Source: Cytophagaceae bacterium (GTDB lineage: Bacteria; Bacteroidota; Bacteroidia; Cytophagales; Flexibacteraceae). Taken from it: a DNA stretch of 41,827 nt. Below are positions 1,723 to 30,113 of the stretch, one piece after another. Each line of letters begins with the position of its first letter. Position 1 is the first letter of the stretch. The notes beneath the pieces are model-generated. The model made no database searches. It was not told where the DNA came from and saw only the letters and a list, made by a program, of their open reading frames with translations. Made by a program: the position numbers and the translations under genes. The stretch covers positions 1 to 41,827 of the forward strand of contig JAIXQU010000156.1 of NCBI GenBank assembly GCA_027485575.1. The letters are read 5' to 3'.

Positions 1723-3471
1723 ATGGAAATAAAAAATAATACCCCAAACCCATTTACTTATCTCATTTGGATAAGTATTTTCATCAGCTCCTGCAACGAT
1801 CAGCCGAGGCATGAAACGTTATCTTCAAAACCAGATTCAAACAGCAATCTAATTGGCTGCCGTGTTCCTGAAGTATTGGATAAAGCGTGGTATACTTCGG
1901 GCAAGAAAGCACCGATACTTACAGGATTGGAAGGAATTCACTTTCCAGTCTCAACAAAAAATCCTGAGGCACAGAAATATTTTGACCAGGGTATGATGTT
2001 GTCTTTCGCATTTAACCACGCTGAAGCAGCACGTTCATTTTTTGAAGCTGCGAGGCAAGATTCAACTTGCGGCATGTGTTGGTGGGGTTTTGCTTATGTT
2101 TTAGGTCCGAATTACAATGGTGGAATGGAGAAAGATAATTTTAAACGGGCTTTCGATGCAAGCCAAAAGGCGAAGAAATACGCCACATCCTGCACGCAGA
2201 AAGAAAAAGAACTAATAGAAGCCCTGACTTATCGCTATTCATCCAATACTGAAATAGCCAGATCGGTACTTGATTCATCATATGCTGCTGCCATGCGTAG
2301 AGTCTACCAAAAAAACTCTTCTGATGTTACCATTGCTTCCCTGTTTGCTGAATCATTGATGGATTTACACCCATGGAATCTTTACCAAAAAGATGGAACG
2401 ATTCAACCATGGACTCCTGAAATTTTAACTGTAATTGAAAAAGGATTAAAATTAGAACCACGCCATGCCGGTGCAAATCATTTTTACGTCCACGCAACTG
2501 AAATGTCTCAGCAAGCCGAAAAAGCTTTGTTGAGCGCCAACCTGCTCCGTGATTTGGTTCCCGGTGCGGGGCATCTTGTGCACATGCCATCACATACCTA
2601 TATCCGAATTGGAAAATATCATGATGGTGTTGTTACCAATCAAAATGCAGTTTTGATTGACAGTTTGTATACGGAGGCTTGTCACGCCCAGGGGGTTTAT
2701 CCGCTTGCTTATTATCCCCACAATTATCATTTTATTTCAGCATGTGGCACACTTTCCGGTGAAAGTAAAATTGCCTTAAAAGGGGCACATGCAACTTCCA
2801 GGCATTCACATAAAAAATTGTTGCGTGACCCAGCATGGGCAACTCTGCAACATTATTACTCTATTCCATGGTATGTAGAAGTGAAGCTTGGTTTATGGAA
2901 TGACATTCTTCATGCTACAGCACCGGAAAAAGATTTAAAATACCCGTCTGTGGTCTGGCATTATGCACAAGGTATGGCTATGCTATCCCAAAATAAAATT
3001 TCTGATGCCAAAAAACACATGATAGAAATGAAAGCCCTCATGACGGATACCTCGATGAAAAAATTAACAATTTGGGGAATCAACAATGTGTTTGATTTAT
3101 GTGTGATAGCCACCAAAACATTGGATGGGGAAATCAATGCCAAAGAAAAAAATTATTCAACTGCCATTATGCTTTTGCAAGAAGCCGTGGCAAAAGAAGA
3201 TGCCTTGAATTATGACGAACCACCAGATTGGTTTTTTTCTATTCGCCATCACCTGGGTGCTGTGTTGATCGAGGCAGGAAAGTTTAAGGAAGCAATAAAA
3301 ATATATCAGGAGGATTTAAAAATCTACCGTGAAAACGGCTGGGCATTAAAAGGGCTCATGAATGCTTACGATAAACTTGGCGACAAAAAGAGATTCGAAG
3401 AAGCTAGAATCCGTTTTGAAGAGGCTTGGAAACATGCGGATATTAAAATAGCCTCATCACGAATACTGTAA
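1723..3471 (+). CDS. TPR-repeat lipoprotein, 582 aa
   Basis: Large tetratricopeptide-repeat protein, probably anchored in the envelope. I chose the ATG at 1723, not the in-frame ATG at 1663, because it gives a proper lipoprotein signal: a hydrophobic stretch ending in the lipobox FISSC with Cys24. TPR-like helices are visible at about residues 80-130 (YFDQGMMLSFAFNHAEAARS) and near the C-terminus (LGAVLIEAGKFKEAIKIYQE). The middle carries unusual His-rich motifs: NHFYVHATE (His253, His257), GHLVHMPSHTY (His284, His287, His291) and YYPHNYHF, plus a CGMCWW motif (Cys116, Cys119). I recall similar TPR proteins with an HMPSHxY motif from many bacteria, but no established biochemical role. It stands alone, divergent from the 144-aa gene. 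Clustered His and Cys suggest metal or haem binding, which is inference only. Confidence 0.85.
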   Translation: MEIKNNTPNPFTYLIWISIFISSCNDQPRHETLSSKPDSNSNLIGCRVPEVLDKAWYTSGKKAPILTGLEGIHFPVSTKNPEAQKYFDQGMMLSFAFNHAEAARSFFEAARQDSTCGMCWWGFAYVLGPNYNGGMEKDNFKRAFDASQKAKKYATSCTQKEKELIEALTYRYSSNTEIARSVLDSSYAAAMRRVYQKNSSDVTIASLFAESLMDLHPWNLYQKDGTIQPWTPEILTVIEKGLKLEPRHAGANHFYVHATEMSQQAEKALLSANLLRDLVPGAGHLVHMPSHTYIRIGKYHDGVVTNQNAVLIDSLYTEACHAQGVYPLAYYPHNYHFISACGTLSGESKIALKGAHATSRHSHKKLLRDPAWATLQHYYSIPWYVEVKLGLWNDILHATAPEKDLKYPSVVWHYAQGMAMLSQNKISDAKKHMIEMKALMTDTSMKKLTIWGINNVFDLCVIATKTLDGEINAKEKNYSTAIMLLQEAVAKEDALNYDEPPDWFFSIRHHLGAVLIEAGKFKEAIKIYQEDLKIYRENGWALKGLMNAYDKLGDKKRFEEARIRFEEAWKHADIKIASSRIL

Positions 3472-3777
3472 ATTTTAATCCAACTTTCTGTCTATTGGCC
3501 TGTTTTATTAGATAAATTATACTTAATTATCGTAGATTTTACCTTTGTTGGTTTATAAGCTTTGGCAGACAGGCCTGGCCCGGAAAGAACATGATTACCA
3601 ATCAAAAACTATTTGGCATTGAAAATCCTGAAAATATTGGAAGCCTTAGGATTAAGGTGGTTGGTCAAAAAAATCCCTTAAAACCAAAACAAGAAATACC
3701 TAATTAAAATATCAGAATCGCCACGCAAATTGAATTTAGGGTTGTGTGTACTGAAAATTCCCATTACTTTGCCCCGT
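3472..3777 (+). other. Intergenic region with weak 38-codon ORF and short repeat
   Basis: A perfect -7-type element TACCTTTG lies at 3540-3547. Downstream, 3591-3707 is an open frame of 38 codons (MITNQKLFGIENPEN...) with no recognisable family; I do not call it a gene. TTTGGCAGACAGGC at 3561-3574 recurs in inverted orientation at 12556-12569. No terminator for the TPR gene is obvious. Confidence 0.35.
3742..3771 (+). promoter_or_regulatory. Candidate promoter with start site at or near the ATG
   Basis: TTG (3742-3744), 19 nt, then TTACTTTG (3764-3771), one mismatch from the Bacteroidota -7 consensus TAnnTTTG. Only six bases (CCCCGT) separate it from the ATG at 3778, so the transcript would be leaderless or nearly so. 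This supports the downstream ATG rather than the in-frame one at 3730. Confidence 0.5.
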
Positions 3778-5814
3778 ATGAAAAAAGTGGTTTCTTCATT
3801 TCTTTTTATCCTGTTTGCCTTGGGGGCAAAGGCGCAACCTTATTTACCAATACCAGTTACGGGCTTCAATGAAGATGTGGTGGCTGAAACCGGGACTAGT
3901 GCCCTGGCAACCACCACCAGAGAAATGGATGCAGAATCCATTTCAAATTATGTTTTATGCACAAAAGGCTTTGCCCTTCAAAACAGTTTCACCCCCCCCA
4001 ATATATATGGCCTTCCAGACAGTGGCCTGCTAGTTTCACCGACAAGGACCTTTCAAATGGGGCCTTTCAATGCCGGAAATGCGGTTTATCTTTTTCCATC
4101 TGATACCGGCAATCTTAATCTGGTAAATCCATCCCGTTTCACGAACCTGAGCTTGCTTACTTTGGCCACAGAGGGAGATGCTGCAGTAAAAATAACATTT
4201 CATTTTTCGGACGGCAGTTTTCAAAATGCAACCAGAAATTTTACGGATTGGTTTGGGCCTGTTGCAAACCCTGTTTTTTTTGGATACGGCAGAGTCAAAA
4301 GAAAGGATGGGCCTTTTTCTGCAGGTGTGGATTATGAAGCGGCAGCAGGTGGAAATCCCAAATTTTCAAATATTGATTTTACCATGCCTTGTACCAAAAC
4401 CTTGGTCTCCATTGGTTTTAAAAACACTTCCATTTCTGGGCCAGGTAGCTCAAGGGCCTTTATCTTTGGTGTGTCTGGACTGGAAAAAAAGGTGATTCCA
4501 AAAATCACAGCAACAGCCTCTGATACTGTAGTTTGCAAAGGAATATCAATCAACTTCGTGGCCACCCCTGAATCACAGGGAACCACTCCGGTTTATACCT
4601 GGAAGGTGAATGGCGTTGTGGTTGGCTCAAACCTTCCGACTTTTTCCTCTACAACTTTACAAAATCAGGACATAATTACCTGCACGTTACAAAGCAATGC
4701 GGCCTGTGCAGCTCCACCTATTGTGGTTTCGAATTCTATAAAGGTCACAATCATACCACCAAAGGTCCCAGAAGTAGACTTGTCAGTAGACGATAGTACT
4801 GTTTGTGCCGGAGTTCAAATAAACTTTACCGCTACCCCTGTAGAACCTGGAACGGCTCCAATATTTACATGGAAAGTAAATGATTTGGTGGTTGGGACAA
4901 ACCAGTCAAGCTACTCTTCATCCACCTTGCAAAACCAGGATGTAATTTCATGCACAATGCAAAGCAATGCCACCTGTGTTTCACCTACTACGGTTGTTTC
5001 CAAAACCATAAGGGTCACAATTTCGCCCTTGCTCACACCTGCGGCCAGCATTTCGCTTGAAGACAGCACTGTTTGTGCGGGCCAACAGGTTGAATTCATT
5101 GCCAATGCAATTAATGCCGGCAACCCGCCAAAGTATGAATGGCAACTGAACGGTGTAGCTGTTGGAAAAGACAGCAGCAGATTTGTTTTGTTAGAACCAA
5201 AAACCGGCGATAAAGTGAGTTGTCTGGTGACCAGCACCGAAAACTGCAAAGCCTTAAATTCAGTAGCTACACCGACAAAAACAATTGAGGTTTTTCCGGT
5301 CTATAATCTTAGTATCCAGGTACCTGACTCATTTTTATTGGACGATTCATCCAAATTGGTTTTGGCAAGCCCTTCAGGAGGTTTGTTAAGTGGAAATGGA
5401 GTTCAGAATTCGAGGTTTTATCCGAATTTGGCAGGTACAGGAAGCCATACCATTCAATATTCATTTCCAGGAAACAATTGCACTCCAACCGTTTCCAAAT
5501 CGATTATTGTTACCGAAAAGATATTGCCCTGTAATCTTGAACCAGCCAACCTGATGACAATGAACGGTGATGGCCTGAATGACGCCTGGGATATTGGGGA
5601 TTTCGACAAGAATTGTATCCTTTCTGCCAGTATTGAAATCTTCAACCGTTGGGGAACTTTGGTGTTTAAATCCGAAGATTATAAAAATGATTGGTTTGGT
5701 AAAATAGATGGGGAACAACTTCCAACCGGTTGTTACTACTACACCATTAGCTATAAGACAGCACGTTCTACCGATCGCTTCAAAAAGAGCGGAGTTTTGA
5801 CTTTAATGAATTGA
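3778..5814 (+). CDS. Secreted multi-Ig protein with gliding-motility-type (T9SS type B) C-terminus
   Basis: Cell-surface or secreted protein of 678 aa. A signal peptide (MKKVVSSFLFILFALGAKAQ) starts at the chosen ATG; the longer frame beginning at 3730 would bury it. Residues about 20-240 form a beta-rich domain with a jelly-roll look (FHFSDGSFQNATRNFTDW), perhaps a binding module. Three Ig-like repeats of about 88 aa follow from about residues 246, 337 and 425, each with DSTVCAG or its variant, a TWKVNG or EWQLNG core and a second Cys near the end. Residues about 587-678 match the gliding-motility-associated (CHU_C) domain: NGDGLNDAWDI, IFNRWGTLVFKS, LPTGCYYYTI. That domain directs T9SS export. 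The protein is probably an adhesin or matrix protein. Its ligand is unknown. Confidence 0.88.
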   Translation: MKKVVSSFLFILFALGAKAQPYLPIPVTGFNEDVVAETGTSALATTTREMDAESISNYVLCTKGFALQNSFTPPNIYGLPDSGLLVSPTRTFQMGPFNAGNAVYLFPSDTGNLNLVNPSRFTNLSLLTLATEGDAAVKITFHFSDGSFQNATRNFTDWFGPVANPVFFGYGRVKRKDGPFSAGVDYEAAAGGNPKFSNIDFTMPCTKTLVSIGFKNTSISGPGSSRAFIFGVSGLEKKVIPKITATASDTVVCKGISINFVATPESQGTTPVYTWKVNGVVVGSNLPTFSSTTLQNQDIITCTLQSNAACAAPPIVVSNSIKVTIIPPKVPEVDLSVDDSTVCAGVQINFTATPVEPGTAPIFTWKVNDLVVGTNQSSYSSSTLQNQDVISCTMQSNATCVSPTTVVSKTIRVTISPLLTPAASISLEDSTVCAGQQVEFIANAINAGNPPKYEWQLNGVAVGKDSSRFVLLEPKTGDKVSCLVTSTENCKALNSVATPTKTIEVFPVYNLSIQVPDSFLLDDSSKLVLASPSGGLLSGNGVQNSRFYPNLAGTGSHTIQYSFPGNNCTPTVSKSIIVTEKILPCNLEPANLMTMNGDGLNDAWDIGDFDKNCILSASIEIFNRWGTLVFKSEDYKNDWFGKIDGEQLPTGCYYYTISYKTARSTDRFKKSGVLTLMN

Positions 5815-12461: not shown

Positions 12462-12867
12462 ATTTCACTGTAGAAAACGATTAATTAAAAAAGCCCTTGC
12501 ATCTGTTTGCAGGGGCTTTTTCTTTGGATCAAACCCCGAATTGCAGTAAGGAAATGCCTGTCTGCCAAAAGACAGGTATTAAGAGTCTAAACTGCTTCAA
12601 ATCAGAAACTTCGTTCCCTTTTTTTCTGTATCCGACGCAGCTATGAATTTCAAAAAAAAGGGATAATTTATTGGCAGCTTGCCCTGTGCAACTTTGTTGT
12701 CGGGCTTGGACTATCATTGCGAAGTCCTGCCGGGTTTAACGTTGGTGAGTATTTTTTTTCGAATTGGTACAAAATCAATCTCCAATCCAGAAGTTTGCCT
12801 CAAAAATTTTAGAAACTAAAAGCTAAAAGAGGTAGTTACTTGCGTTTGTAAAAAACAAAGAGCATTT
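12462..12867. other. Intergenic region, no gene seen
   Basis: After the protease terminator there is a CCTGTCT...AGACAGG hairpin (12557-12576) containing the inverted copy of the 14-nt sequence at 3561. A 62-codon minus-strand frame (12529-12717) has no protein-like features. A weak -7-like TGCGTTTG lies at 12841-12848 before the ABC gene. Confidence 0.5.
12487..12523 (+). terminator. Terminator of the metalloprotease gene
   Basis: AAAAAAGCCCTTGCA pairs with TGCAGGGGCTTTTT with one G-T pair; loop of 6 nt; T-run follows. It lies 25 nt past the stop. Confidence 0.85.
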
Positions 12868-24433: not shown

Positions 24434-24757
24434 ATGTACATAGACCAATACATAGCCAATCACAAAGATGAATTTCGATTTTTATGCCAGACCTATAAGG
24501 TAAATACTTTGTATGCATTGGGCTCCTCTACCAGGCTGGATTTTAATCCTTTGGCCAGTGATATAGACCTTTTGGTAATCATAGACGAAGAAGATCCGAT
24601 AGAGCGGGGCAATCTTTTGTTGGGCATTTGGGCCAAAATGGAAACCTTCTTTAATCGCAAAGTCGATTTACTTACTTTCGATTCCATGCGCAATCCCATT
24701 TTGAGAAAGGCCGTTGACCGCGACAAAGTGAAAATTTATGACCGAGCAAACGATTAA
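24434..24757 (+). CDS. mntA: MntA-type nucleotidyltransferase antitoxin (MNT domain)
   Basis: Minimal nucleotidyltransferase of 107 aa. The catalytic signature is complete: Gly30-Ser31, then Asp43-x-Asp45 in ASDIDLLV, with a third carboxylate at Asp78 (KVDLL). In the HepT-MntA family, MntA transfers AMP units from ATP onto a tyrosine of the HEPN ribonuclease HepT and thereby silences it. The stop codon overlaps the start of the HEPN reading frame by 20 nt, the usual two-gene layout (here antitoxin first). The gene shows no damage, although its partner does. Confidence 0.9.
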   Translation: MYIDQYIANHKDEFRFLCQTYKVNTLYALGSSTRLDFNPLASDIDLLVIIDEEDPIERGNLLLGIWAKMETFFNRKVDLLTFDSMRNPILRKAVDRDKVKIYDRAND

Positions 24758-25077
24758 ACATCTCACAGACATTAGTCAAGCCATAACCTTGATCGAATCC
24801 TTTACTGCGGATGTTTCAGATTTTGAAGTCTATAGATCTGACCCAAAGACCAGAAGTGCCGTAGAAAGGCAATTGGAAATCATTGGTGAAGCAGCCAACA
24901 AACTGGATAAATTGGAATCAAATGTCAAATTGGTGCATAGCAGCCAAATGATAAGCCTAAGGAACAGACTTATACATGCCCTATGACAGCATAGACGATG
25001 CCATAGTCTGGGCCATCATAAAGCGGCATATTCCAATGCTAAAGGAGGAAATTTCACCTATTTTGAAGCAGTTATAA
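24738..25077 (+). pseudogene. hepT: Frameshifted HepT (HEPN ribonuclease toxin)
   Basis: The frame from 24738 encodes 82 aa with a HEPN fold (RSAVERQLEIIGEAANKL) and reaches the RNase motif Arg75-Asn-Arg-Leu-Ile-His80-Ala81, then reads CTA TGA and stops. Skipping one C of the CCC at 24979-24981 restores TAT GAC AGC and continues for 31 more codons (YDSIDDAIVWAIIKRHIPML...) to a TAA at 25075-25077, giving a normal 112-aa HepT. The extra base therefore falls exactly at the Tyr of the RX4HXY motif, the residue AMPylated by MntA, and removes the last helix. The predicted product is a truncated, probably unstable or inactive toxin. A sequencing error in the C run is the main alternative. Confidence 0.85.
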
Positions 25078-25486: not shown

Positions 25487-25519
25487 AAAAAAATGCCCCT
25501 GCAAGACAGGAGCATTTTA
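25487..25519 (-). terminator. Terminator of the beta-helix lipoprotein gene
   Basis: AAAATGCcCCTG (25490-25501) with CAGGaGCATTTT (25507-25518), one mismatch, 5-nt loop; on the minus strand the stem runs into T7. Confidence 0.75.
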
Positions 25520-25542: not shown

Positions 25543-27021
25543 TTAGTAAGCCGTATTTTTAGGGTCGAAGTTTGACCAGCCATCTGTCCAGTCAGTGGCT
25601 CCAAATGCACCGTGAAACTCAACCAGTTGGAAAAAACCATTGGTTAACTTAGCTGCAGTTTTGTTGGCTCCGTTTGTAATAACCCCTGTAGGCACAGCAA
25701 AAGAAGGATTTGCAGGATAAACCGGAGTTTTTCCCATGTATAAGTTAACATTAATTCCAAGGGCATTGTAGTCCAGATTCTTTGTAAGGCTCACATATCC
25801 AGCAGGATTGTTCTCGTTGTAATATGTTTTCACCTCATCATCGGTATTGCCTGTTCCTCCCTGAAAAGGTTTTGGAGCAGTTCTGTTGCCCAAAGAAATC
25901 AATAAGTTGTTTTTGATTTCACCTGTAGATGATGCCAAATTGTAATTGTCCTGGGTTGATTTGCCATCCAATCGGATTCCAACCGGATATCCTGTTAATA
26001 CAGAGTTAAAAATTGAAGAAGCAGTTCTTCTTCGGAAATGAACTGCATGTTGGTAATTGGCAGAAATGGAAGTAGTTGAATCAAACCTTGGACCAAAAAC
26101 TGTAACATTGGAAAAAACAGGGGCTGTCAATGGAGTAAGTGTAGAACCACCCGCATCATTGTCAGATTCAAAAGCATTAGAACCAGATTGATCGGCTGAA
26201 AATGGGTCGCGAACTGCCACAGCAAACTGAACTTTTCCAGTGTAACCAAAATCAGTATCAAAATCATCATCCCATGTTCCATATGAAATCAGGTTTTTGG
26301 CATTAACAGTACCCCCAAACCACTCAAATCCATCATCCCCGCCATATGAAACCTGTACATTTTCAATGATGGTTCCATTGCCAACTCCGCCCATAGTTAA
26401 ACTATTTGTTTCGTTGTTTGGAGAAAGGGCAATGCCCGCATATTCAATCCGAACGAATTTTAATACACCGGAATTTTCACCATCATTGGCAGTGCTGTTT
26501 TGCGTTCCGAAATTTACTGCTGGCGTAACTCCTTCTATTGCAGGGTTGTTCTGATTTACATTGGCATTTCCAAGAAGAATAATCCCGCCCCAGTCGCCTT
26601 TGTCTCTTTCGCCTGGCCCTAGTTTGGATGTGAATATGATAGGCTTTTCAGCGGTTCCTTCTGCGATAAGTTTTCCACCTTTGTTAATAATTAAAGTTCC
26701 TTTTGTTGATTTATCACCCATGATTATTGTTCCAGGAGGTATTGTTAAAACCTGACCGGATTGGACAAAAACAAACCCTTTCAATAGGTATTTTTTAGTA
26801 GCATTTAGGGTTTGAGTGGTTATTGTACCCTGAAGTGTAATGATTTCAGAAATTGTATTTACGGTATCCGTATTATTGATTGTGTCTTTAACAACGATGG
26901 TATCTGTGACCACAACAGTAATTGGAGAAACAGGATCCTTCTCATCTTTTTTACATGAAAAGACTAAGGCGATTGCCGAAACTAAGATTAAGTATTTACA
27001 AATGAAACGATTGAATAACAT
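25543..27021 (-). CDS. Beta-helix surface lipoprotein paired with the TonB-dependent receptor
   Basis: Lipoprotein of 492 aa: the signal ends with the lipobox VFSC (Cys23) and KKDEKD. A Thr/Val/Asp-rich linker (VVVTDTIVVKDTINNTD) leads into a domain of short parallel-strand repeats (LTIPPGTIIMGD, GTLIINKGGKLIAEGTAEKP, DWGGIILLGNANV), the look of a right-handed beta-helix. The middle contains acidic loops (YGTWDDDFDTDFGYTG, NAFESDNDAGGS) that may bind Ca2+ or a ligand. The end (WTDGWSNFDPKNTAY) is conserved-looking. I recall this family beside SusC-like receptors without SusD, which would make it the ligand-capturing partner of the next gene. A terminator lies between the two, and each has its own PhoP-box-like repeat. 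Ligand unknown; phosphate-containing compounds are inferred from the operator. Confidence 0.8.
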   Translation of the reverse strand: MLFNRFICKYLILVSAIALVFSCKKDEKDPVSPITVVVTDTIVVKDTINNTDTVNTISEIITLQGTITTQTLNATKKYLLKGFVFVQSGQVLTIPPGTIIMGDKSTKGTLIINKGGKLIAEGTAEKPIIFTSKLGPGERDKGDWGGIILLGNANVNQNNPAIEGVTPAVNFGTQNSTANDGENSGVLKFVRIEYAGIALSPNNETNSLTMGGVGNGTIIENVQVSYGGDDGFEWFGGTVNAKNLISYGTWDDDFDTDFGYTGKVQFAVAVRDPFSADQSGSNAFESDNDAGGSTLTPLTAPVFSNVTVFGPRFDSTTSISANYQHAVHFRRRTASSIFNSVLTGYPVGIRLDGKSTQDNYNLASSTGEIKNNLLISLGNRTAPKPFQGGTGNTDDEVKTYYNENNPAGYVSLTKNLDYNALGINVNLYMGKTPVYPANPSFAVPTGVITNGANKTAAKLTNGFFQLVEFHGAFGATDWTDGWSNFDPKNTAY

Positions 27022-27061
27022 AATAACAGTGTTTTAATTTTGTGCAAACAAGCACCAGCTA

Positions 27062-27078
27062 TGTTAAGCCAGTGTTAA
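27062..27078 (-). promoter_or_regulatory. PhoP-box-like direct repeat before the lipoprotein gene
   Basis: On the minus strand TTAACA-N5-TTAACA, extended as CTTAACA in both halves, an 11-bp period. It lies 41-57 nt upstream of the start codon, where an activator replacing the -33 element would bind. This equals the direct-repeat rule of the Bacillus PhoP box. Confidence 0.5.
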
Positions 27079-27154
27079 GGGAAGTTTAGCTTTATAGAAA
27101 AAATTGATTTTTAATGTTATCAAATTGTTGGCTCCATTCTATTTGATAAAACAC

Positions 27155-27188
27155 AAAAAAGCCCGGATAGAAATATTCCTTCCGGGCC
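27155..27188 (-). terminator. Terminator of the TonB-dependent receptor gene
   Basis: TCCGGGC / GCCCGGA stem (27181-27187 with 27161-27167), then T6 on the minus strand. It separates the receptor from the lipoprotein gene. Confidence 0.8.
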
Positions 27189-27210
27189 ATAGAACTTGAA
27201 ACGATTTGAT

Positions 27211-30012
27211 TTACAAGGTATAAGAAACCAAAAAACTAAAATACGAACCTCTTCTGAACCGGGAAATCAACTCGTCTCCTGAGGTAATTTTTGAATCACG
27301 GTTAGAGTCCTGAACAAACCGGGTTTGAAAGTTTAACAAATCGTTCACACCCAATTTTAGATTAACTCTTTTTGCCACCTGATGACTGACTGATAGATCG
27401 ATAATGTGTCTTGGCATCTCATAAATAGAAGGAAATGTGGCATCACCAACCATGAAAATTCTTTTGCCATAGACATTATATAAAGCTGAAAAACTGGTGG
27501 TTCCTTTTTCACTTGTGTAGAAAAATCCTCCGTTGACAACATAAGGCGACTGGCCTTGAAGGGCCCTGATTCTTTCCTGAGAACCTACCACACCCAAATC
27601 TACACGGCTATTGATCAAACTGGCATTGCTCACAAAAACCAACCGGTCAATAAAACGGTCACCTCCGGGAAGACCCAATGATTTTCTGATTTCCAATTCT
27701 ACGCCATAGTTATTGGCGGTGGTAGCATTGGAGTAGGTAAACTGAGGAGAAAGGCCTATTGGAGAAATTTTTGTTTCAATAGGATTGATAAAGTATTTGT
27801 AAAACGCACCAAAAGTGACCATTTCTCCTTTGGAGGGATAAAACTCAAGCCTATAGTCAAGATTATGAATATCAGCTACTTTCAGGTCTTTATTTCCAAC
27901 GAAATTGGCATCCAGATTGAAGTCATAGTACACAAATGGGGCCAACTCCCGAAATTCTGCCCGGTTGATGGTTTTACTGTAAGCCGCACGCATCGTCCAG
28001 CTTTTATTGACCTCATAAGAAGTATTAAAAAATCCCAAAGGGCTCAAAATTGGGTTATTAACATTTACCCTTTCAGAAGATGTAGCCGATTGTAAAGCCT
28101 GGCGGTTAAACTCTGGTCTGATTCCACCAATAAGTTTAAATCTCCCAATTGGGATCATTGTCTCTATAAATCCAGCTGCCAGAAAATTCTGGGCCTGGTA
28201 AGCATCTTGTGGGCGGGTTCCTTCTTCCAGCACAAACTTTTGGGTGCTAAGGTTGTCTGTACTGAAAATCTGGTTGAGGGGCTGATAAATCAGATCTTGA
28301 TTTTGTCCGGGATTTTTTAGCAGATAAGCAAAAAATCTAGCGTCAAACACCCTTGATTTGGTTTCTACATATGCTCCGGTTCTCAATGTAGCTTTTGCAG
28401 AATCCCAGGAAACAGAAAACTGCCGTGTTAAAGTGGTAGAAATGGTTCCTACATGTTCATTAAGTTTTGAATAAAAACGTCCTGTTTCATCCAAACCACC
28501 AGAACCAGCAGCAGGCACCAATTGAAAAGGCTCTTCTGTTTGGGCCTGGCGAACAGTTTTAATTCTTCTATAATCCGGCTGACTTCGGTGTGTATAGCTG
28601 TAACCGGCCACCCAATCAATCTGGTTATTTTCATTAAGCATATGATTTCCAACCAATTGAGAACTTAATAAACTTCTGCTTAAGTAGTTATAGCTGTAAT
28701 TTTTAAATTCATCGCTGCTTCTATCTGATATTTTTCCGGTTCGGATTACAGTTTCATTATCGCCGATTTGGTTGAATAGATTTTTGAATTCAAACCTGGA
28801 TTTTGAAGTTTTATACATCCAATTTGAAATGGCTGAAATCCTGATATTCCGGGCATAAGACTGGTCAGAGTATTGAAAAAGTGTGTCCTGACTTTTTTGT
28901 AACTCTTCGTTCCATGAGGCATATCTGAATCTGGAAATCTTTGTATTCTGAGAGGTAGAAGTGTAGTTCAGTGAAGAAACTGTACTCAATACATTTTCAT
29001 TTAGCTTCCATCTTTTTCCGAAGTTAAGTCCGAACCGCATGTCAGGAAGATTCGAAGATTGTTTGTTGGCAAAGTTTCCATTCAATTGGCGTGCATATTC
29101 AACTTGCTGACTCACTGGGAGATTCTGATAAATATCTGTTTTGGGGAAATAGGATGGTAGTTCTCGTTTTCCATTGTCGTACCCTAAAAAATCTGATGAA
29201 GATCCTTCTGAGGACAGATTGTTTTGAAGAGTGGTCAAGGGCCTGAGGGCAGAACCAAAACTTAGATTGAAAAAATCTTCTCCAAAGGTGTTTTTGGTAA
29301 ATATTTTTACTACACCCCCGGCAAATTCACCCGGTAGAGAAGCTGAGCCAGACTTATAGATCATCATTCTTTCAATCATATTGGAAGAAATCAAATCAAA
29401 TGAAAATGCCCTTGTATCTACCTCTGTCCCCGGAGAGATGGCATCATTGATCATCACAGAATTATAACGCTCATTTACACCTCTGATCATCACAAACCGA
29501 TTGTCGACCACGGTAACTCCTGGCACCCTGGCCATTACCTGTGCTGCATCCCTATCCTGGGTTTTTGCAATTTGTTCTGATGAAACCCCATTTACAACCA
29601 TTTCAGCTTTTTTCATATCAGAAATCAAACTGATGTCTGTGTCCTTTCTTCGAACCACGGAAACAGTTACTTCCTTATTTTCTTTGATATCTTCTTCCAG
29701 GGTAATGTCCAGTGCTCTTACTTCTCCCGAAGGAATAGGTTGAAGAGGCAATCGCCTTGTTTTGAATCCAACATACCTGAAAATCAAGGTTTGTTCCTTT
29801 TCCGCAGGAATATCCAATTTGTATTTACCGTCAAAATCAGTCTGGGTTCCGGTGGTGGTTCCCTCAATAAGAATGGTGACCCCAAACATCCCTTCACTTT
29901 TTCCAGCTTCTTTAATCTGGCCCTTTATGGTTACTTTCTGTGCAAAGGATTTCAGCTGTAATCCACTGATTAAGAACACGAAAAGACCAATTCTAAAATA
30001 TACTTGCTTCAT
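27211..30012 (-). CDS. TonB-dependent outer-membrane receptor with CarboxypepD_reg-like domain
   Basis: Active-transport porin, 933 aa. A signal peptide (cleavage near SFAQ) is followed by a carboxypeptidase-regulatory-like domain (about 26-110: IKGQIKEAGKSEGMFGVTI, GTQTDFDGKYKLDIPA, FRYVGFKT). Next comes the plug domain (about 125-250: QVMARVPGVTVVDNRFVMIRG, NSVMINDAISPGTEVDTRAF, LPGEFAGGVVKIFTK), then a 22-strand-type barrel to the C-terminal strand SYFSFLVSYTL. No SusD gene is adjacent, so it is not a classical SusCD glycan system. The neighbour is a beta-helix lipoprotein in the same orientation. A PhoP-box-like repeat 85-101 nt upstream matches one before that lipoprotein gene. Divergent from tRNA-Thr. 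Confidence 0.95.
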   Translation of the reverse strand: MKQVYFRIGLFVFLISGLQLKSFAQKVTIKGQIKEAGKSEGMFGVTILIEGTTTGTQTDFDGKYKLDIPAEKEQTLIFRYVGFKTRRLPLQPIPSGEVRALDITLEEDIKENKEVTVSVVRRKDTDISLISDMKKAEMVVNGVSSEQIAKTQDRDAAQVMARVPGVTVVDNRFVMIRGVNERYNSVMINDAISPGTEVDTRAFSFDLISSNMIERMMIYKSGSASLPGEFAGGVVKIFTKNTFGEDFFNLSFGSALRPLTTLQNNLSSEGSSSDFLGYDNGKRELPSYFPKTDIYQNLPVSQQVEYARQLNGNFANKQSSNLPDMRFGLNFGKRWKLNENVLSTVSSLNYTSTSQNTKISRFRYASWNEELQKSQDTLFQYSDQSYARNIRISAISNWMYKTSKSRFEFKNLFNQIGDNETVIRTGKISDRSSDEFKNYSYNYLSRSLLSSQLVGNHMLNENNQIDWVAGYSYTHRSQPDYRRIKTVRQAQTEEPFQLVPAAGSGGLDETGRFYSKLNEHVGTISTTLTRQFSVSWDSAKATLRTGAYVETKSRVFDARFFAYLLKNPGQNQDLIYQPLNQIFSTDNLSTQKFVLEEGTRPQDAYQAQNFLAAGFIETMIPIGRFKLIGGIRPEFNRQALQSATSSERVNVNNPILSPLGFFNTSYEVNKSWTMRAAYSKTINRAEFRELAPFVYYDFNLDANFVGNKDLKVADIHNLDYRLEFYPSKGEMVTFGAFYKYFINPIETKISPIGLSPQFTYSNATTANNYGVELEIRKSLGLPGGDRFIDRLVFVSNASLINSRVDLGVVGSQERIRALQGQSPYVVNGGFFYTSEKGTTSFSALYNVYGKRIFMVGDATFPSIYEMPRHIIDLSVSHQVAKRVNLKLGVNDLLNFQTRFVQDSNRDSKITSGDELISRFRRGSYFSFLVSYTL

Positions 30013-30096
30013 AAAAATTTGAAGCTTAAAGTAGGATTTTTGCCATTACCCAAAGTTTCCCTGGATGTTATGGGAGTATTATATTTTTGGCCTCAA

Positions 30097-30113
30097 TGTT
30101 AAGAGAATGTTAC
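30097..30113 (-). promoter_or_regulatory. PhoP-box-like direct repeat before the receptor gene
   Basis: On the minus strand GTAACA-N5-TTAACA, one mismatch from the repeat before the lipoprotein gene with identical spacing. A TATAAT-like hexamer follows about 14 nt downstream. A further single TGTTAT (plus strand) lies at 30066-30071. Confidence 0.45.

Follow-up and report, generated by a model that had tools for sequence, protein, structure and literature searches.

We identified in a 41,827-nucleotide contig of a Cytophagaceae bacterium (JAIXQU010000156.1, assembly GCA_027485575.1; the whole stretch is hereafter the window) a TonB-dependent receptor gene and an adjoining gene for a predicted surface lipoprotein that, judging from their promoters, are very probably switched on at phosphate exhaustion. 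Each gene is preceded by direct repeats of a TTAACA-like hexamer resembling a PHO box, and we consider it highly probable that the pair is controlled through these boxes by a PhoB/PhoP-type regulator. A first-pass annotation of the window had proposed such co-regulation, and the proposal is now well supported by computation: the boxes are conserved in relatives, keep the orientation of the genes and a fixed phase with the promoter, recur ahead of PiT and pst genes, and belong to a pair that is linked to phoBR in relatives. The uptake role of the pair is less certain than its control by PhoB.

PHO-box-like repeats precede both genes

The receptor gene (27211..30012; 933 aa) and the lipoprotein gene (25543..27021; 492 aa) lie on the minus strand, as do all the promoter elements described here. 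The lipoprotein gene carries the direct repeat TTAACA-CTGGC-TTAACA (TTAACACTGGCTTAACA, 27062..27078) 40 bp before its ATG at 27021, and the receptor gene carries a distal repeat, GTAACA-TTCTC-TTAACA (GTAACATTCTCTTAACA, 30097..30113), 84 bp before its ATG at 30012. Both pairs had been pointed out in the first-pass annotation and are present at these coordinates in the same orientation as the genes. Its inventory had, however, overlooked a proximal receptor repeat, ATAATA-CTCCC-ATAACA (ATAATACTCCCATAACA, 30066..30082), and a degenerate third repeat, CTAAAC (27084..27089), 11 bp upstream of the lipoprotein box. Each gene is preceded by at least two direct repeats about 11 bp apart in gene-sense orientation, as is expected of a PhoB/PhoP regulon. 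In Bacillus, the PhoP box is TTAACA-N5-TTAACA; the boxes of the window's clade share with it the direct TTAACA repeats and the 11-bp spacing.

The repeats are also recognizable in members of the genus. An array similar to the distal receptor repeat is present in two of them (G001 and G004), and the proximal repeat aligns with TTAATG/TTAACG/TTAACA-N5-repeat boxes in the three genus members other than the window's own genome. The lipoprotein promoter reads CTAAAC-TTCCC-TTAACA-CTGGC-TTAACA, followed by CTTGTTTG, and its conserved islands across four genus members are GCTAA, TAACA and TAA; the GCTAA of the degenerate repeat is kept in register in all four. On the two strands of the window taken together, the relaxed pattern TAAYA-N6-TAAYA occurs exactly three times (0.37 expected; three or more in 1 of 100 shuffles), each time before one of these two genes and on the proper strand.

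Conservation of the boxes at orthologous promoters

We compared 59 genomes, comprising the window's own and others of its genus, family and order, and found matches to the lipoprotein in 55 and to the receptor in 57, the two genes being commonly neighbors. In a first set of 60 upstream regions (30 receptor and 30 lipoprotein, the window's own two included), NTAACA half-site pairs spaced exactly 11 bp apart numbered 17 in the sense orientation and none in the antisense orientation, against 0.07 per shuffle; the remaining spacing signals included the multiples 22 and 33. A box was present in 9/30 receptor promoters (Fisher p=2e-6) and 6/30 lipoprotein promoters (p=7e-4), compared with 13 of the 430 upstream regions (3.0%) that belong to other genes of the retrieved loci, although the p-values of the promoter sets ignore shared ancestry. 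The motif is kept upstream of orthologues, which the first-pass annotation had named as a check, and on the sense strand only. In a second set, which overlaps the first in part and takes its 121 promoters from named genomes of Bacteroidota and neighboring groups, 11/46 receptor promoters had a box (p=2e-6), with 14 sense and one antisense 11-bp pairs. One relative (L107, G025:C56, 5961-15714) has genes for PhoB, the lipoprotein, the receptor and, immediately downstream of these, ExbB/ExbD-like proteins, the latter named from their sequence starts only, in a single run in which boxes precede the lipoprotein and receptor genes.

Boxes before phosphate transporters and linkage to phoBR

The same boxes stand before genes for phosphate transport, another check that the first-pass annotation had named. 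Among 30 genomes, 12 have a box in the promoter of the PiT phosphate transporter gene, a family unrelated to the pair (12 sense and 0 antisense at 11 bp; p=2e-9), including the window's own genome, in which TTAACATAACGGTAACA begins 71 bp upstream of the PiT start codon. Three relatives that have a pst operon carry boxes directly before it, the pst genes other than pstB being identified by the starts of their sequences and by gene order: a box 60 bp upstream of pstS in G055; a box ahead of a leader gene, with pstS-C-A-B after it, in G024; and a triple repeat 62 bp upstream of pstS in G016.

Homologous pairs adjoin phoBR in the Flavobacterium loci L157 (F. micromati), L162 (F. fontis) and L165 (a Flavobacterium metagenome-assembled genome); there, as in a Bacteroidia metagenome-assembled genome (L188), phoR-phoB is divergent from the receptor and lipoprotein genes. 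PhoB homologues are also encoded near the pair in G017, G050, G025, L220 and L226. The window's own genome encodes orthologues of both proteins, a response regulator and a kinase on contig C57. The PhoB of F. micromati has a single clear orthologue there (C57:20013-20675; 50%, 252 bits; next match, 127), which most likely is the regulator that recognizes the boxes. It scores under the cut-off of TIGR02154, likewise in all 59 genomes. The gene order on C57 is a TlpA-like gene, the PhoB orthologue and the kinase, and the TlpA-like gene carries GTTACACTGTCTTAACA 29 bp upstream, a single weak site that fits with autoregulation of phoB. A Pfam search of PhoR detected kinase domains only (HisKA and HATPase_c) and no PAS domain. 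Profile searches of the same genome found no PstB over the cut-off and no PhoU. Across the order, PhoU is present in 9/59 genomes and PstB in 10/59, and PhoB-like regulators are nearly universal.

Phasing of the repeats with the promoter

When 62 promoters were anchored on their best box, the Bacteroidota -7 element TAnnTTTG started 37 nt downstream of the box's first base. The TTTG lies at offsets of 30, 41, 52, 63 or 74 nt from the box, all in the same helical phase, with in-phase sites in 31/50 cases of the first set and 32/33 of the second. This is the pattern expected of an activator that sits on one face of the helix over a variable number of 11-bp repeats. In the window, the candidate -7 element of the lipoprotein promoter (CTTGTTTG, 27045..27052) has its TTTG at offset 30, in the helical phase of the relatives. 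The receptor promoter has a weak candidate, TACTTTA (30027..30033), which aligns with TTTG-bearing sites of genus members, and an alternative candidate, AAACTTTG (30051..30058). A reading of these promoters as sigma-70 type was rejected, with matches at background level. In a simple terminator scan, one hairpin (27074-27053) coincided in part with the lipoprotein box; we took it as a chance match, given the unmistakable terminator a short way upstream (27160..27188).

That terminator follows the receptor gene (minus strand; -18.1 kcal/mol, z=-3.0, then a U tract), and a second one follows the lipoprotein gene (25489..25518, minus strand; -17.1 kcal/mol, z=-3.7, U tract). The description of the two genes as separately terminated is borne out by these strong hairpins. 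In contrast to the F. johnsoniae locus discussed below, the pair here has no linkage to phoBR, and the two genes are each equipped with a promoter and a terminator of their own.

The receptor and lipoprotein and their proposed role

The receptor combines an N-terminal CarboxypepD_reg-like domain (PF13715, E=1.9e-17) with a Plug domain (PF07715, E=2.8e-12). Among NCBIfam models it is closest to TIGR01782 (TonB-Xanth-Caul, E=1e-43), under that model's cut-off, and its score against the SusC/RagA model TIGR04056 (62.3 of 368 bits) is far under the cut-off and does not place it in that family. The N-terminus of the lipoprotein contains VFSC, similar to a lipobox, and then KKDEKD, a stretch like the K-(D/E)-rich signal that directs Bacteroidota lipoproteins to the surface. 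It matched no Pfam or NCBIfam family and, in a phmmer search, no PDB sequence. Its structure model is good (pLDDT 80, pTM 0.83) and folds as a right-handed beta-helix; VIA-align matches (Z about 18-22 over 240-308 residues, 6-15% identity) were mostly polysaccharide lyases, epimerases and phage tailspikes, with Z about 21 to the beta-helix lyases and epimerases. This fold alone names no function or substrate. The invariant acidic residues are grouped in GDDxFEWFGG, WDDDFDTDFG and ESDND, which suggests a putative metal-binding or catalytic site; the conserved acidic positions are D229, D230, E233, D251, D252, D255, E285 and D287. As the first-pass annotation had stated for this locus, no SusD-like protein is encoded beside the pair: the partner is the beta-helix protein, without a Pfam family, and the neighbors are tRNA-Thr/UvrA and MntA-HepT-like genes.

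A TonB receptor with CarboxypepD_reg and Plug domains, an adjoining beta-helix lipoprotein and no SusD are also features of a locus in F. johnsoniae. The PUSIV locus of this bacterium, Fjoh_0543-0546, is described as encoding PhoR, PhoB, a TonB-dependent transporter and the lipoprotein FII (Lidbury et al., 2020; PMC8115612). The transporter (Fjoh_0545) and FII (Fjoh_0546, IPR011050) belong to the phoBR operon and are reported to be strongly induced on phosphate depletion, with tabulated transcriptome values of 8.0 and 9.9 (PMC8115612). Fjoh_0545, with Plug and CarboxypepD_reg_2 domains, is followed by a beta-helix lipoprotein without SusD, as in the window, Fjoh_0546 being likened by its published description. 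The gene order PhoR-PhoB/receptor-lipoprotein recurs in F. micromati L157, whose lipoprotein is 53% identical. A second parallel is ElpS (CC0170) of Caulobacter crescentus, a surface lipoprotein that is made under phosphate starvation and adjoins the TonB receptor CC0171 (Le Blastier et al., 2010; PMC2996285), whose authors remarked on the co-occurrence of the two types of protein. The link to the window is indirect, via the 31-36% identity to ElpS reported for the Flavobacterium proteins FI, FII and FIII (PMC8115612), and C. crescentus is an alphaproteobacterium in which the genes lie next to those of a type II secretion system. The phosphate-regulated SusCD/PusCD systems of Flavobacterium are likewise TonB-dependent outer-membrane uptake systems with a lipoprotein partner, as described in the same report (PMC8115612), but the window's pair differs in having no SusD, a receptor far under the SusC/RagA cut-off and a beta-helix partner. 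It is well supported that the pair is an additional case of the already known low-phosphate pairs of the Fjoh_0545/0546 and CC0171/ElpS kind.

The most conserved nucleotides of the motif reported for Riemerella anatipestifer PhoP from DAP-seq (DNA affinity purification sequencing) are TTTAACA (PMC9603813). The TTAACA core is common to that motif, also from a member of Bacteroidota, and to the boxes of the window's clade, for which the repeat spacing is known. PhoB of Bacteroides fragilis binds its own pstC promoter (PMC3547664). In the open-access literature we found no published Bacteroidetes/Bacteroidota PHO box beyond the Riemerella motif and no description of repeats with 11-bp spacing that keep phase with the -7 element. 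It is this phasing to TAnnTTTG that sets the present repeats apart from the Bacillus and Riemerella boxes.

In the most likely scenario, PhoR would phosphorylate PhoB during phosphate starvation, and PhoB would bind at least two tandem 11-bp TTAACA repeats at the position of the -33 element, in fixed phase with TAnnTTTG. Bound in this way, PhoB would activate the receptor and lipoprotein genes from their two separate promoters. The lipoprotein would be displayed on the cell surface, where its beta-helix may bind or cleave a phosphorus-bearing polymer, and the adjoining receptor would import the released product. The import step has a serious competitor, which leaves control by PhoB untouched: the PHO boxes could be genuine, but the lipoprotein could serve as a secreted phosphatase helper or an adhesin and the receptor could supply another need of starved cells, for example a metal. 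Overproduction of ElpS is reported to have raised secreted alkaline phosphatase activity with no observed change in intracellular phosphate (PMC2996285), and the fold of the lipoprotein by itself shows no substrate. Against this alternative, the lipoprotein and the TonB receptor occur tightly together throughout the order, and we regard a role other than phosphorus import as plausible, if somewhat doubtful.

Weighing control by PhoB

Several observations weigh against PhoB control of the pair. The own phoB gene is not adjacent to it, and CC0171, unlike ElpS, is reported to be constitutive (PMC2996285). The receptor promoter has a poor -7 element whose phase is ambiguous between the two candidates. 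The exact box is absent from 21/30 receptor and 24/30 lipoprotein promoters of the first set, and among the lipoprotein promoters of the second set exact boxes are not enriched (2/75, p=0.68). Neither form of the motif is enriched in the 3.9-Mb genome (TAAYA-N6-TAAYA, 39 vs 79 for the reversed control; TAACA-N6-TAACA, 12 vs 19). Given this lack of enrichment, the motif is weak evidence alone, and its significance comes from its conservation in relatives.

The boxes might instead be operators of another regulator of the OmpR/PhoB family, such as an ArcA-like or RprY-like protein, which also bind direct repeats, in which case the pair would answer a different stress. The genome encodes other OmpR-family regulators (on C9, C166, C72 and C154), and the Riemerella PhoP motif is described as similar to that of E. 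coli ArcA (PMC9603813). Yet the same boxes precede PiT and pst operons, and phoBR adjoins the pair in several relatives, which makes another regulator unlikely. Less probable still is that the proximal repeat is merely a variant -33 element of constitutive promoters that need no activator: it does lie in the usual -33 place, about 20 nt upstream of TAnnTTTG, but the repeats are tandem, come in at least two copies at offsets that step from 30 to 74 nt, are rare before other genes and are concentrated at phosphate genes. Chance matches in AT-rich intergenic DNA are hardly credible, for although the pattern is genome-wide no commoner than its reversed control and about 3% of unrelated promoters have a box, the strand-specific conservation of an exact 11-bp spacing at orthologous promoters, the PiT boxes, the placement of all three window sites (3/3) at these two genes and their phase with the -7 element contradict it.

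Other box-like sites and neighboring genes

The exact TTAACA-N5-TTAACA has only three sites in the genome, one of which is the lipoprotein box. Another (L102 4023-4039, G000:C38) lies 51 bp upstream of the gene for a 188-aa protein (3406-3972, minus strand) that is predicted to be secreted and is without a known family. Further PHO-box-like repeats, a triple at 4249-4276 (minus strand) and one pair at 4393-4409 (plus strand), lie in L103 (G000:C134:70000-79000) between two divergent genes for large secreted proteins: one, of 975 aa, is a type IX secretion system protein that has OB-fold and Calx-beta domains, and the other, of 1507 aa, is without a Pfam match. The L103 exoproteins are possibly further phosphate-regulated proteins. 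A paralogous receptor/lipoprotein pair in the same genome (L100, G000:C141) has a near-match, TTAACATTGATTTTACA, before its receptor gene (about 12719-12735, minus strand). In the window itself, positions 24434-24986 of the plus strand encode an MntA-like nucleotidyltransferase (a weak NCBIfam match, under cut-off) followed by an 82-aa HepT-like open reading frame that stops just past RNRLIHA, so that the toxin gene seems truncated; the two genes are probably a degraded type VII toxin-antitoxin pair.

Implications for phosphate control in Bacteroidota

A PhoB regulon that apparently works in an order mostly without Pst and PhoU is the less expected finding. We tentatively propose, at somewhat less than even confidence, that the usual PhoB regulon of the order does without PstSCAB and PhoU and has a PhoR in which no PAS domain can be detected, that its boxes stand before PiT and the receptor/lipoprotein pair, that the lipoprotein is a beta-helix enzyme or binder of phosphorus-bearing polymers, and that PhoR senses starvation by an undescribed route. 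TTAACA repeats with an 11-bp period, phased to TAnnTTTG, are a candidate operator for phosphate control in Bacteroidota, which would help to call phosphate-starvation genes from sequence across the phylum and would tie a widespread, little-characterized receptor/lipoprotein pair to phosphorus acquisition.

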